Virus record (IMG/VR): IMGVR_UViG_3300021594_000451 | Span: 1 to 20,783 of that record | From: a virus | DNA length: 20,783 bases | Direction: 5' to 3' (one strand) | Shown: positions 2,420-6,662 of the stretch, piece after piece | How positions within the stretch are numbered: the first letter of the stretch is position 1 | Layout of the letters: the number at the start of each line of letters is the position of its first letter | Position numbers and translations under genes: made by a program | The notes under the pieces: generated by a model | The model's database searches: none | Told to the model about the DNA's origin: nothing | Seen by the model: only the letters and a program-made list of their open reading frames with translations

Positions 2420-2574
2420 GTCAGACAAAACGCTTATACGAAGAAATGGAACTCAATGTATTAGACATTGATCTTGAGGACGAGGAGTATCAATTCCGTC
2501 AATGGATAGAAAAAGAATATGAAAAATATTTGGCTGAGAATCCAAATAGTCCTATCTTAGCTCCTCACAATTAA
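2416..2574 (+). CDS. Small acidic hypothetical protein (52 aa)
   Basis: A 52-residue ORF starting at ATG 2416 in an ATGA overlap with the preceding gene. The middle is very acidic (LDIDLEDEEY), followed by a helical stretch and a Pro-rich tail (PNSPILAPHN). I do not recognise a family. Support comes from the coupled start, the lack of space between genes, and a following ORF with its own promoter. That promoter (2529-2560) lies wholly inside the last third of this gene, so the C-terminal residues NPNSPILA overlap a regulatory site. Acidic small phage proteins sometimes mimic DNA or bind basic host proteins, but this is only a thought. Confidence 0.6.
   Translation: MSQTKRLYEEMELNVLDIDLEDEEYQFRQWIEKEYEKYLAENPNSPILAPHN
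2529..2560 (+). promoter_or_regulatory. TATCTTAG-class promoter, copy 1
   Basis: TTTG (2529-2532), N20, TATCTTAG (2553-2560), then 25 bases to the ATG at 2586. The box differs from TAnnTTTG by one base. It is the first of five nearly identical elements in 1.1 kb and lies inside the preceding coding sequence. Confidence 0.75.
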
Positions 2575-2585
2575 AAAAACAGACA

Positions 2586-2849
2586 ATGACAACACAAAAC
2601 ATTATTTGGGCAGTATCTCAAATCTCAGTATGGATCAACGAAGAAGTAGGAACAACACAAGATAGTTTGATTGTGTGGTATTGTAAGAATGGGACTGAGG
2701 TTACATTGGATACAGAAGATAACACATTGCAGATCTGTGATTCAAAGTTGGATAACAAAACTTACTTTGCTCTTGCAGGTTTATGTAAATCATTGGAGGT
2801 TGAATTATTTGATACATACACAGAAAAAACAATCAAACCAAAGAAATAA
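2586..2849 (+). CDS. Small hypothetical protein
   Basis: An 87-residue protein with no recognised family. The pattern of short alternating hydrophobic stretches (DSLIVWYC, GTEVTLD, NTLQICD) suggests a small beta-rich fold, followed by one helix (TYFALAGLCKSLEVELF) and a basic tail (TIKPKK). It has its own promoter ending at 2560 and an A-rich leader (CTCACAATTAAAAAAACAG) without a Shine-Dalgarno sequence. The next gene also has its own promoter, so it may be expressed as a single-gene unit. Likely an early accessory protein; the role is unknown. Confidence 0.65.
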   Translation: MTTQNIIWAVSQISVWINEEVGTTQDSLIVWYCKNGTEVTLDTEDNTLQICDSKLDNKTYFALAGLCKSLEVELFDTYTEKTIKPKK

Positions 2850-2850
2850 A

Positions 2851-2882
2851 TTTGGCTGGTAAATAATACCATCGTATCTTAG
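2851..2882 (+). promoter_or_regulatory. TATCTTAG-class promoter, copy 2
   Basis: TTTG (2851-2854) begins one base after the stop of the previous gene. N20 is followed by TATCTTAG (2875-2882), then 23 bases to the ATG at 2906. Confidence 0.75.
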
Positions 2883-2905
2883 CATCTCAAACAAACACAA
2901 TTACA

Positions 2906-3022
2906 ATGAAACAGAAACTATTACAACAGATCAAAGACATCAACATTTATGATTACTTTTATTTTTTGGGTCAAAACTCATCAGTAAAAGTTCTAAAAGA
3001 ATATTTGGTAGAATCAAAATAG
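2906..3022 (+). CDS. Very small hypothetical protein (38 aa)
   Basis: A 38-residue ORF beginning MKQKLLQQIKDINIYDYFYF. It is placed exactly where the promoter cassette predicts a start, 23 bases after a TATCTTAG box. It has a basic N-terminal helix, an aromatic centre (YDYFYFLG) and a second amphipathic helix (VKVLKEYLVES). The -33 box of the next promoter (3004-3007) falls inside its last codons. No family is recognised. Support is positional: same spacing and same A-rich leader (CATCTCAAACAAACACAA) as its four neighbours. It is short enough that it could be missed or be a leader peptide. Confidence 0.55.
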   Translation: MKQKLLQQIKDINIYDYFYFLGQNSSVKVLKEYLVESK

Positions 3023-3034
3023 TTTGTATCTTAG
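3004..3034 (+). promoter_or_regulatory. TATCTTAG-class promoter, copy 3
   Basis: TTTG (3004-3007), N19, TATCTTAG (3027-3034), then 24 bases to the ATG at 3059. The -33 box lies inside the end of the 38-residue ORF. Confidence 0.75.
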
Positions 3035-3058
3035 CACTTCATACTTAAAAAATAAACG

Positions 3059-3301
3059 ATGAGAATCATTAAAGCACAACACCCCGACTGGCAAGCAACA
3101 CCTTTTTTTATTTTAACCTCAGGACAATACGAACATATTATGCGTGGTTATGAGGATTTTCAAAACTTAGATGATGTTATTGACTACCTATGTTCATTTG
3201 AGTGTGAAAATACTGATTTCATAACAACTGTAGATGATCAAATTGTTTTCAAGGAAATGACAGAAAATAGACAAATTGAATTTTGGTTTGATCAGAATTA
3301 A
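3059..3301 (+). CDS. Small acidic hypothetical protein
   Basis: An 80-residue acidic protein without a recognised family. The N-terminal part (WQATPFFILTSGQYEHIM) is followed by an Asp/Glu-rich middle (YEDFQNLDDVIDYLCSFECE) and a short C-terminal strand pattern ending in IEFWFDQN. It has two cysteines (near residues 45 and 49) but no CxxC pair. It is expressed from its own promoter at 3004-3034, and the next promoter starts within its last codons. Likely an early accessory protein of unknown role. Confidence 0.65.
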   Translation: MRIIKAQHPDWQATPFFILTSGQYEHIMRGYEDFQNLDDVIDYLCSFECENTDFITTVDDQIVFKEMTENRQIEFWFDQN

Positions 3302-3313
3302 TCCCTATCTTAG
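3282..3313 (+). promoter_or_regulatory. TATCTTAG-class promoter, copy 4
   Basis: TTTG (3282-3285), N20, TATCTTAG (3306-3313), then 24 bases to the ATG at 3338. The -33 box is inside the previous CDS. The initial transcript GCACCTCACAATTAAAA is nearly the same as behind copy 1. Confidence 0.75.
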
Positions 3314-3337
3314 CACCTCACAATTAAAACAAACATC

Positions 3338-3571
3338 ATGGACTTTTTAATCACACCACTCACTCAAGAACAATACAACGAACTCAGTTCAATGAAATTG
3401 GAATCACCATCAATATATGCTAGTATAGTCAAATCCTTTCAGAAAGATGTTAGAGCATATCGTGATCACGGGATCTATGGTATCGGAGCTTTCTTTAGTA
3501 AGGATGTATATGACTTAGCTCGTTACTACGAATACATCGTTCTCAAAAAACTCTTGGAGAAATCAAATTAA
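3338..3571 (+). CDS. Small hypothetical protein
   Basis: A 77-residue protein, not recognised. It starts MDFLITPLTQEQYNELSSMK, a strand followed by a helix. The middle has HGIYGIGAFFSKDVYDLARYYEY, aromatic-rich, and the end is Lys/Leu-rich (IVLKKLLEKSN). It has no membrane segment or signal peptide. It has its own promoter (copy 4) and precedes the exported protein gene by 35 bases, in which promoter copy 5 sits. The unusual tyrosine content is the only notable feature. Probably an early accessory protein. Confidence 0.65.
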   Translation: MDFLITPLTQEQYNELSSMKLESPSIYASIVKSFQKDVRAYRDHGIYGIGAFFSKDVYDLARYYEYIVLKKLLEKSN

Positions 3572-3584
3572 CATCATATCTTAG
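3553..3584 (+). promoter_or_regulatory. TATCTTAG-class promoter, copy 5
   Basis: CTTG (3553-3556), N20, TATCTTAG (3577-3584), then 22 bases to the ATG at 3607. The -33 box has one mismatch and lies inside the preceding gene. Confidence 0.7.
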
Positions 3585-3606
3585 CACACTAATAAATAAA
3601 AATAAA

Positions 3607-4116
3607 ATGAAAAAAATCATGATGGTCGCAATCGTCCTAATTGCATCTTATGTTTCCAAAGCTCAAACAATTAGAGCAACATCATCTGCTGGTATCTCAA
3701 TGTTAAGAGAGTCAACCTATGATGTAGGATATAGTCCAGTAACAATGGTTGGTTTAGAATTCAATTACAAATTCGGTTTGGAGTATGGTTATTCTTGGGG
3801 TCTCAACAATTCTCCACAACAATTGAATAACTATATCAATGGAACTTCAAGGAGTTATACTGCTGGTCATTTCACTCACATTACTGCTCTATACTGGAAG
3901 ACAGAAAAAGATGAAGGGACTGGTGTAAATTTAGGGTTTGGTATATCCTCTACCAATTTCTATAAAGCTGAAGAAGGTGTTGTGATTGACAAATTGGTCC
4001 GACCTTATTTCAAAGTTGGTGTTGATCATTCATTCAACAATAATTGGTCAGGAACAATAAATGCAGGATTAGGAGAGTTAACAATGGTCACAGTTGGTTT
4101 AACAAAAAAATTATAA
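3607..4116 (+). CDS. Exported outer-membrane beta-barrel-like protein
   Basis: A 169-residue protein. Residues 1-20 are a clear Sec signal peptide: MKK, a hydrophobic core (IMMVAIVLIASYV), then SKA|QT. Cleavage leaving Gln first is typical of Bacteroidota. The mature part has alternating strands with aromatic and glycine residues (FNYKFGLEYGYSWGL, GVNLGFGISS, VRPYFKVGVDHSF, GLGELTMVTVGL), as in small eight-strand outer-membrane barrels. It should sit in the outer membrane of the infected cell or lysogen. A phage barrel could mask or replace a receptor and block superinfection, or alter serum or predator resistance; nothing in the sequence decides this. It has its own promoter (copy 5) and a strong terminator 27 bases after the stop, a typical moron layout. 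Confidence 0.7.
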   Translation: MKKIMMVAIVLIASYVSKAQTIRATSSAGISMLRESTYDVGYSPVTMVGLEFNYKFGLEYGYSWGLNNSPQQLNNYINGTSRSYTAGHFTHITALYWKTEKDEGTGVNLGFGISSTNFYKAEEGVVIDKLVRPYFKVGVDHSFNNNWSGTINAGLGELTMVTVGLTKKL

Positions 4117-4143: not shown

Positions 4144-4168
4144 GGTCTCAGAAATGAGACCTTTTTTT
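4144..4168 (+). terminator. Rho-independent terminator, probably bidirectional
   Basis: GGTCTCA (4144-4150), GAAA tetraloop, TGAGACC (4155-4161), then seven T (4162-4168). It is a perfect 7-bp stem. Read from the other strand, the hairpin is followed by AATTTTATTT, so it may also stop the convergent minus-strand gene whose stop codon overlaps the T tract. Confidence 0.85.
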
Positions 4169-4565
4169 ATTCCCAATATTTTGATAATTTATCTTTAGGT
4201 CTACCCTTTGGTGTTAATACCACGCCATGCTTCATTAGAACCCTCTGGAGGAACTGTTCGTGTAAATCCTGTGTAATGTCATAGCCAATAATTTCAAGGA
4301 ATTTTAGGGTATTAGAATGGTCTCTGGTGAAGTTGAAGGATTTGAAGGCTATGTGACTAACTTCTTTGTTGTCCTTGGCTCTTTTTTCTCTGAATACTTT
4401 TCCCCTTTTTCTGGCTCTTTCACGATAATGTGCTTGGATCATTGCTCCATAAGCATTTTGACAAGGTCTGCACTTATAGTTCAGTCCATCCTTTGCATTC
4501 TTGTTGATAGAAAAATCCGAAAGAGGTTTTTCAATTTTACATTTACTACAAATTTTTGATTCCAT
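4167..4565 (-). CDS. Zinc-ribbon protein (endonuclease VII / HNH-like N-terminus only)
   Basis: The only convincing minus-strand gene, 132 residues. Cys6-x2-Cys9 and Cys32-x2-Cys35 form a four-cysteine zinc ribbon (ICSKCKIEKPLSDF, then YKCRPCQNAYG). This is the N-terminal treble-clef-like element seen in phage HNH and endonuclease VII-family proteins. A basic helix follows (RERARKRGKVFREKRAKD). I see no downstream HNH residues or endonuclease VII catalytic region, so this may be a DNA-binding remnant or a regulator. The C-terminus (TPKGRPKDKLSKYWE) is basic with an AT-hook-like GRPK. It is convergent with the barrel gene across a shared terminator and divergent from the structured region 4615-4843. 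I found no convincing promoter upstream of its ATG. Confidence 0.65.
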   Translation of the reverse strand: MESKICSKCKIEKPLSDFSINKNAKDGLNYKCRPCQNAYGAMIQAHYRERARKRGKVFREKRAKDNKEVSHIAFKSFNFTRDHSNTLKFLEIIGYDITQDLHEQFLQRVLMKHGVVLTPKGRPKDKLSKYWE

Positions 4566-4614
4566 TTTTATAAATACTATTCAGATCCCAAAAAGTTTTT
4601 TTATTTATTGAGAG

Positions 4615-4843
4615 TATTTGAACTGACAGGAAAAGGTTCAATGTCGCCCTGAAGGTATAATCGGCACGGAACGAGAATAAGGGTCTCACGGGTGGAATAA
4701 TTCAAATAGAACTAAGACATACCTGATACGAAAGAGGTCAATAAGGATAAGTAAGATATGGGGGATTATAGGAACTGGTCTTACGAAACTTATTGGGTGT
4801 GGTTAAAATATAGGGAACTATAAGTGTGCTTAGTTGTCTCGTT
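4615..4843 (+). ncRNA. Candidate structured RNA with a pseudoknot
   Basis: The gene-free stretch 4566-4868 has stops in all frames on this strand and is richer in G than its neighbours. Complementary segments fit one model: TATTTGAA 4615-4622 with 4701-4708; GACA 4625-4628 with 4642-4645; GCCCT 4646-4650 with 4680-4684; AACTAAG 4710-4716 with 4829-4835, continued after a bulged A by CATAC 4718-4722 with 4824-4828; 4738-4745 with 4789-4796; GTAAGA 4751-4756 with 4779-4784; TATAG 4809-4813 with 4818-4822 around a GGAA loop. AACGAGA 4670-4676, in the loop of the third helix, pairs with TCTCGTT 4837-4843 and makes a pseudoknot. G-U pairs (4646/4684, 4720/4826, 4738/4796) and the GNRA loop favour the + strand. 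It matches no RNA family I know. It may be free-standing or the leader of the gene at 4869. Confidence 0.45.
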
Positions 4844-4864
4844 GAAGAAGATTATTTATATTTT
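4833..4864 (+). promoter_or_regulatory. TATATTT-class promoter, 4869 gene
   Basis: GTTG (4833-4836), N20, TATATTTT (4857-4864), a variant of TTTG-N20-TAnnTTTG. The expected start site falls at or just before the ATG at 4869, so the mRNA would be leaderless or nearly so. The upstream box overlaps the 3' strands of the candidate RNA. Confidence 0.4.
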
Positions 4865-4868
4865 ACAA

Positions 4869-5168: not shown

Positions 5169-5179
5169 TACAATATTTT

Positions 5180-5187
5180 TATATTTT
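5180..5187 (+). promoter_or_regulatory. TATATTT-class -7-like element, 5194 gene
   Basis: TATATTTT (5180-5187) sits in the 25-base gap before the ATG at 5194, six bases upstream of it. It shares TTTATATTTTAC with the element before the 4869 gene. No TTTG-like box is visible at the right distance, so it may instead be an A/T-rich translation signal. Confidence 0.3.
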
Positions 5188-5193
5188 ACTTAT

Positions 5194-5884: not shown

Positions 5885-6145
5885 ATGAAGAAGCTAACAA
5901 ACCCTAGACAGATTGCAATCCTAAAAATTATTACAGAAGACATTGAAAAGACTGGTGACTTCACACCTTTAACCAATCAAGAGATCTATGAAAAGATGGA
6001 TTTCAAAATATCACCTTTTTCAATTAGAGATCACATTATCAAAATGGCAAACAATGGATTCATTCAGAAGATAAACAACACATGGATCAATGATGTATAT
6101 TATCCAAGAGTTATTTATAAAGGGAAAAATGAGTTGGCTAGATGA
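5885..6145 (+). CDS. LexA-like winged-helix DNA-binding protein
   Basis: An 86-residue basic protein. The start NPRQIAILKIITEDIEKTGD, then LTNQEIYEKMDF and FSIRDHIIKMANNGFI (to about residue 60), follows the winged-helix pattern of the LexA DNA-binding domain: 'RQ..IL..I', 'EI...', 'S...R.H...M...G.I'. Residues 61-80 fit the wing. There is no protease or ligand domain, so it is a stand-alone DNA binder. It is likely a phage transcription regulator acting on promoters, possibly the one just upstream. It is the first gene of the long unit, and its end overlaps the sigma-like gene by 17 bases, which suggests linked expression. Confidence 0.65.
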   Translation: MKKLTNPRQIAILKIITEDIEKTGDFTPLTNQEIYEKMDFKISPFSIRDHIIKMANNGFIQKINNTWINDVYYPRVIYKGKNELAR

Positions 6146-6662
6146 ACTCATATTAACAAAGATTTTGAATAATATTTGGATTGAATCCAACTTTGACGAA
6201 TTAAAAAAAATATGTAGATCAGTCAGCAGGCAAAATGATATTGACGATCTATTGCAAACCTGTGTTGAACAGTTCCTCCTCAACAAAAAAACAGCTGAGT
6301 TAAGCAGCAACCAAAAATTATATTTCTTTACAAGGATTGTTCATAACCAATATCATTCCAAAACCTCAAAATTTTATTATCATTTCAAAAGGAGTTACAA
6401 TACCCTATATGATGAAACAGAAATAGTAGATGAGGATTACCAAGAACCAGAAGTGAATTTGGAATGGGTAATGAAACAACTAGATGAAATTAAACAAGGT
6501 AAGGATTGGTATTATGGTAGACTATTTGAATTATACATTGAACTTGGATGTTCAATTACAAAACTGTCAGAGAGGACAACAATCCCAATCAATAGCGTCT
6601 CAAGGGACATCAACAAAATTAGAAAAATACTAAACAAGAAAAGAAATGGGATGTGGTTGTAA
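6129..6662 (+). CDS. Sigma-70-family-like RNA polymerase factor
   Basis: A 177-residue protein from ATG 6129; earlier in-frame starts lie deeper in the preceding gene. Residues about 20-80 look like sigma region 2: a helix with DIDDLLQTCVEQFL (compare 'D.DDL.QE.F'), then YFFTRIVHNQYHSK. Residues about 115-170 look like region 4, with RLFELYIELGCSITKLSERT, then TIPINSVSRDINKIRKIL as a helix-turn-helix. An acidic linker (about 94-110) joins them. Phage factors of this kind redirect host RNA polymerase to phage promoters. It sits between a winged-helix regulator and the packaging genes. The sequence is divergent, so a packaging-linked DNA-binding role cannot be excluded. Confidence 0.6.
   Translation: MSWLDELILTKILNNIWIESNFDELKKICRSVSRQNDIDDLLQTCVEQFLLNKKTAELSSNQKLYFFTRIVHNQYHSKTSKFYYHFKRSYNTLYDETEIVDEDYQEPEVNLEWVMKQLDEIKQGKDWYYGRLFELYIELGCSITKLSERTTIPINSVSRDINKIRKILNKKRNGMWL

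Follow-up and report, generated by a model that had tools for sequence, protein, structure and literature searches.

Promoter-mediated modular shuffling of small phage genes is already known. In T4-type phages, mobile regulatory cassettes termed PeSL (promoter early stem-loop) have been described (Arbiol 2010; Comeau 2014; cited in PMC4503421): strong host-type promoters are repeated among small accessory genes in hyperplastic regions, and genes are shuffled among close relatives by recombination between copies. In lambdoid phages, morons are accessory ORFs that lie inserted between conserved phage genes and carry a host-type promoter of their own. In cluster K mycobacteriophages, phage-specific repeats (SAS/ESAS) precede many unrelated small genes; SAS is a 13-bp repeat that lies 3 to 7 bp ahead of the start codon and overlaps the ribosome-binding site (PMC3203893). 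The primary promoters of Bacteroidota have the form TTTG/TAnnTTTG, refined to TAHHTTTG in F. johnsoniae (PMC6847099).

The array of small genes described here resembles each of these in part. Functionally it resembles PeSL regions, including the repeated host-type promoters and the shuffling among relatives, but it was not classed with them because its linkers lack the stem-loop terminator of PeSL cassettes. It differs further in that its promoters are split, the −33 half being coding sequence of the upstream gene and the joint lying in the −7 box and leader, and in that it occurs in small, putative Bacteroidota phages with a SigA(Bfr)-type consensus. Unlike morons, its genes are contiguous, terminators are present at its two ends only, and its promoters overlap genes. 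Its repeat is not that of SAS but a promoter box plus leader, of different sequence and 22 to 25 nt before the ATG. With Bacteroidota primary promoters it shares the −33 TTTG, the spacer of about 20 nt, the TA(H)(H)TT.G box, and a leader of about 25 to 30 nt without a Shine-Dalgarno sequence; it differs from them in that A replaces T at −6 and the −33 element (TTTGG) is far better conserved. The new features are split promoters, in phages of this predicted host group. An integron cassette array was also considered and was rejected, as the linkers do not fold strongly, as attC-like sites would, and the joints fit plain homology.

Architecture of the array and its promoters

The window, the whole stretch of DNA that was analyzed (20,783 bp; an IMG/VR record), comprises two thirds of a tailed-phage genome of about 33.2 kb. 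A near-identical record, G002 (32,959 bp), is a near-complete genome and supplies the remainder, which includes portal, putative capsid protein, protease-like, and tape-measure genes. The host is probably a member of the Bacteroidota, judging from the promoter form, the leaders without Shine-Dalgarno sequences, and distant Flavobacterium phage terminases. Bacterial genome contigs searched with the terminase alignment yielded no relative, a promoter-pattern search gave matches in scattered taxa only and pointed to no host, and searches of phage records with the array or its proteins gave neither matches nor a cultured member of the group. No evidence of lysogeny was found for array-bearing phages. 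The features of the array are as follows, all on the + strand.

About 2074 to 2106: intrinsic terminator of the upstream structural operon and left border of the array (fold z −3.0, then a T run)
2115 to 2146: anchor promoter, TTTG-N20-TATTTTTG (TATCTTTG in relatives)
2165 to 2419: anchor gene 1, 84 aa, family F11 (F00 in most relatives)
2416 to 2574: anchor gene 2, 52 aa, family F01; its 3' end holds the entire next promoter
2529 to 2560: promoter 1, TTTG-N20-TATCTTAG; five different ORFs lie behind copies of it in relatives
2586 to 2849: cassette ORF F02, 87 aa; present in three phage lineages with different promoters
2851 to 2882: promoter 2, TTTG-N20-TATCTTAG
2906 to 3022: cassette ORF F09, 38 aa
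3004 to 3034: promoter 3, TTTG-N19-TATCTTAG
3059 to 3301: cassette ORF F25, 80 aa; internal deletion in L207/L129
3282 to 3313: promoter 4, TTTG-N20-TATCTTAG
3338 to 3571: cassette ORF F03, 77 aa, MD[FW]LITPL family; its neighbors differ in relatives
3553 to 3584: promoter 5, CTTG-N20-TATCTTAG
3607 to 4116: last cassette ORF, F14, 169 aa; signal peptide (by eye)
4144 to 4168: intrinsic terminator closing the array (z −4.1)

Because terminators lie on both flanks, the array constitutes a defined transcription island of seven small genes. No terminators were found inside it, and its linkers fold much like shuffled sequences (best z −1.8); folding of the leaders is little or no better than that of shuffles. 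F14 gave a weak match to an outer-membrane beta-barrel family that was below the cut-off (Pfam OMP_b-brl_2, E 0.001).

The initial annotation had described five promoters here, each with a TTTG-like box, a spacer of 19 to 20 nt, and a TATCTTAG box 22 to 25 nt before an ATG, and all five were recovered. The boxes are at 2553, 2875, 3027, 3306, and 3577 (+ strand); the −33 elements start at 2529, 2851, 3004, and 3282 (TTTG) and at 3553 (CTTG); and the box-to-ATG distances of promoters 1 to 5 are 25, 23, 24, 24, and 22 nt. A sixth promoter, with the canonical T, serves the first gene (2165), its TATTTTTG box occupying 2139 to 2146. The coordinates also bear out the overlap with genes that had been noted: four of the five −33 elements lie within the preceding ORF, and a single base separates the 2851 element from the stop codon at 2847 to 2849. 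Promoter 1 is complete within gene 2416-2574, together with its box and 13 nt of leader. The −33 elements and their spacing fit a Bacteroidota SigA(Bfr)-type promoter, and the proposal of one host-type promoter per small gene is supported.

The motif is strongly enriched. TTG-N19/20-TATCTTAG occurs five times in the window, compared to a mean of 0.04 and a maximum of 1 in 300 shuffles, and TATCTTAG alone occurs seven times, compared to a shuffle mean of 1.0. No −33 element precedes the remaining TATCTTAG copies (10717, + strand; 11032, − strand), and the combined motif was found on neither strand of the window outside the array. A scan of the genome and its relatives, which the annotation had suggested, agreed: TTG-N18-22-TATCTTNG is confined to the array in G002, and of 105 array ORFs, 51 are preceded by a promoter of this form, as against 2 of the 178 ORFs elsewhere. 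For TATCTTTG in relatives, the spacing from TTTG has a sharp peak at 19 to 21. Among 2.9 million viral contigs, the 23-bp block is restricted to this phage group. When viral contigs were scanned broadly with TTTGG-N17-21-TATCTTAGC, most had a single match, and the matches inspected fell within coding DNA; the motif by itself is therefore unspecific. Scanning for E. coli-type sigma-70 promoters revealed no excess over chance.

The overlap of promoter and gene is regular across the array and its relatives. Commonly, 4 to 6 nt separate the end of the upstream stop codon from the −7 box, and the −33 TTTG is located within the upstream gene, about 18 nt before the end of its stop codon. Unrelated ORF families share similar C-terminal tails (LVESK, LEKSN, LAESN, LVESE, and LADSK) because those codons encode the next −33 element and spacer.

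Gene content of related arrays

About 18 distinct contigs bearing the slot, collected as terminase relatives and by scans with four small proteins, were compared; all contigs compared are metagenomic. Two anchor genes come first, followed by differing small ORFs that have been moved, added, or lost; in the window's lineage both anchor genes are constant, and across the arrays 59 ORF families occur in shuffled order behind constant anchors. Representative orders are as follows.

Window: F11 F01 F02 F09 F25 F03 F14
L230: F00 F01 F02 F04 F03 F05
L246 and L257: F00 F01 F10 F06 F07 F16 F17 F09 F18
L241: F00 F01 F03 F04 F12 F05 (the F01 frame was listed as F19 by the caller)
L247: F00 F01 F13 F12 F20 F04 F03 F07 F06
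L251: F00 F01 F28 F03 F07 (F01 likewise called F19)

Variation is also seen within the phage itself. Both ends of G002 map inside the array, at about 2829 and 3030 of the window, and L129/L207 departs from the window after 2829. Such breaks and divergence among contigs of the same phage are as expected of population variation. Most of the array ORFs carry no assigned function; among those of relatives are GNAT acetyltransferases (F16, above the Pfam cut-off, and F34, just below it) and a NUMOD4/HNH endonuclease (F50).

The initial annotation had proposed portable accessory cassettes and a comparison of gene content to see whether promoter and ORF move as a unit. Gene content is indeed shuffled, but promoter and ORF do not move together as one unit: the −33 half remains with its upstream neighbor, and the joint falls in the −7 box and leader.

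Position of the exchange joint

Two complementary sets of comparisons locate the joint. In relatives, anchor gene 2 with a near-identical half-promoter and box precedes five unrelated ORFs. Conversely, F03 lies behind four different upstream halves in L241, L247, L248, and L251 with its leader kept. The box and leader of these F03 copies are 97 to 100% identical and the ORFs 89 to 96% identical; the upstream halves are about 60 to 63% identical and sequence further upstream about 53 to 61%, near the background for AT-rich linkers, which is high (by our estimate about 0.5 to 0.55 in global alignment). Together, these two patterns place the joints in the −7 box/leader block (TATCTTAGCACCTCACAATTAAAA...).

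One pair of arrays captures a clean presence/absence event. In L251 (F01, F28, F03), a 34-bp direct repeat, TATCTTAGCACCTCACAATTAAAACAACAACAAT, is found on each side of F28; in L241 (F01, F03), F28 is absent and one TATCTTAGCACCTCACAATTAAAACAACAACAAT copy is present. The L241 sequence is exactly the product that recombination between repeats of the L251 type would be predicted to leave. This was the only clean insertion/deletion pair found. F02, compared across lineages, shows mainly ORF similarity (80 to 83% at best), with flanks near background and a local promoter each time.

Alternative explanations and proposed mechanism

TATCTTAG departs from the −7 consensus TAnnTTTG at one base, and that base, the T at −6, is nearly invariant in F. 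johnsoniae (PMC6847099); the departure is therefore genuine. One alternative is that TATCTTAG defines a distinct promoter class read by a phage sigma-like factor (6108 to 6662) instead of the host sigma, making the array a regulated module. The A common to all five boxes argues for it, as do weak matches of the phage protein to the PHROG sigma factor (E 0.008) and of its L142 relative to Sigma70_r4_2 (E 0.03). However, L142, whose array carries TATCTTTG, has the same sigma-like gene family; TTTG and TTAG boxes coexist in one array (the anchor promoters of TTAG arrays carry TTTG, and L247 has one TTTG cassette, at 868, among TTAG ones); and the position of the sigma-like gene, directly ahead of that for the small terminase subunit, is one often occupied by late regulators. 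We consider this reading unlikely. In the sister lineage (L142, L145, L150, and L214) the box is TATCTTTG or TAnCTTCG with unchanged architecture, and the suggestion that TTAG marks a separate functional class was rejected on this lineage distribution. In 60 genomes of host-like order, with counts summed by hand, TTAG was somewhat commoner at the correct spacing (43 matches at N19-20) than at a wrong one (25 at N26-27), and TTTG behaved similarly (254 versus 169). The simplest reading is that TTAG is a tolerated, perhaps weaker variant that may have spread along with the repeated block; TATCTTAG-type promoters could be weak or dependent on another sigma.

Two further alternatives dispense with either exchange or promoters. 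If the block were mainly a translation or RNA-stability element with a fortuitous resemblance to a promoter, its extension to near the ATG and the A-rich leaders, as favored by translation in F. johnsoniae (PMC6847099), would be accounted for; this is highly improbable, given the co-occurrence of the −33 element at 19 to 20 nt, the sharp TATCTTTG spacing peak in relatives, and leaders that fold like shuffles or little better. The least probable reading is tandem duplication of one promoter-gene unit, in which the promoters would resemble one another only through recent shared ancestry and no exchange would have occurred. In its favor, leaders of unrelated ORFs are on average 72% alike within the lineage versus 63% between lineages, but the 59 families show no detectable relatedness, the same ORF occurs with different upstream halves and the same half with different ORFs, and the L241/L251 pair is a clean recombination pair. 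Simple tandem duplication was rejected because the ORFs are unrelated, and the shuffled gene orders already largely refute it.

The explanation that we consider probable is a hypervariable accessory array with split host-type promoters, in which ORFs are exchanged by recombination at the box/leader block. A separate promoter of host-sigma type, TTTG-N19-20-TAnCTT[A/T]G, would drive transcription of each small ORF. Each promoter is split at the cassette border: the upstream gene contributes the −33 element and spacer as its 3' end, and the repeated block ahead of the next ORF contributes the −7 box and A-rich leader. Copies of the block would recombine, probably by homologous recombination, within one genome or between coinfecting relatives, and ORFs would thereby be inserted, deleted, or exchanged. 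Each recombinant would regain a complete promoter, a leader without a Shine-Dalgarno sequence, and an ATG at the right distance, and the common A of TTAG would have spread as part of the block. The boxes are predicted to be active with unmodified host RNA polymerase early in infection, and the cassette ORFs are putative accessory host-interaction genes; the early action on the host that had been predicted would be compatible with host-type promoters.

More tentatively, and on balance with some doubt, the promoter may be the recombination joint by design, that is, a selected plug-in architecture without an integrase, homogenized separately in each phage lineage. A cassette would then be bounded by −7 boxes, with the gene tail (often ...L[AV][ED]S[KN]-stop) serving as the next −33 half, and any homologous exchange would give a correctly expressed gene. 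Phages gain and lose host-interaction genes quickly, and how a new small gene acquires a working promoter is rarely visible. Where a regulatory repeat is also the exchange site, gene gain and expression gain would occur in one event. The array boundaries offer a simple sequence handle for collecting, from uncultured Bacteroidota phages, many small accessory genes that are still undescribed.

Additional observations

Several other features of the window were noted. A lone minus-strand gene (4167 to 4565), whose N-terminal half is endonuclease VII/HNH-like, comes immediately behind the terminator that closes the array. An ORF-free segment (4602 to 4836), situated between the array and the regulatory genes, is 81.5% conserved in the distant relative L150; it has no Rfam match and no unusual folding and is possibly an origin, packaging, or regulatory site. 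TTATATTTTAC is repeated at 4852 to 4868 and 5176 to 5192, a few bases before the ATG of genes 4869 and 5194, and possibly represents a different promoter or leader class. A small protein (5885 to 6145, + strand) contains a LexA-type winged-helix DNA-binding domain (Pfam E 1.2e-7). The sigma-like protein (6108 to 6662, + strand), weakly similar to a phage sigma factor and to Sigma70 region 4, is a candidate late-gene regulator.

A conserved 5' leader element, CGGGGACAGG-N(2-12)-CTGAACA, absent from the window, precedes many unrelated phage genes in relatives (for example, L230 2656, L241 4908, L145 6695, L217 3276, L163 2930 and 3322, L285, and L286). It had no matches in 120 host-order genomes and no Rfam match. 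Its distance to the ATG is 9 nt in 44 of 66 low-GC matches and 8 to 10 nt in 57 of the 66, and it is possibly a phage-specific translation element. In another phage group, represented by L217 (2480 to 3300) and L218, arrays of this type are built around a repeated block of different sequence, TATATTTGCACTCTAACAATCAAAAAC.
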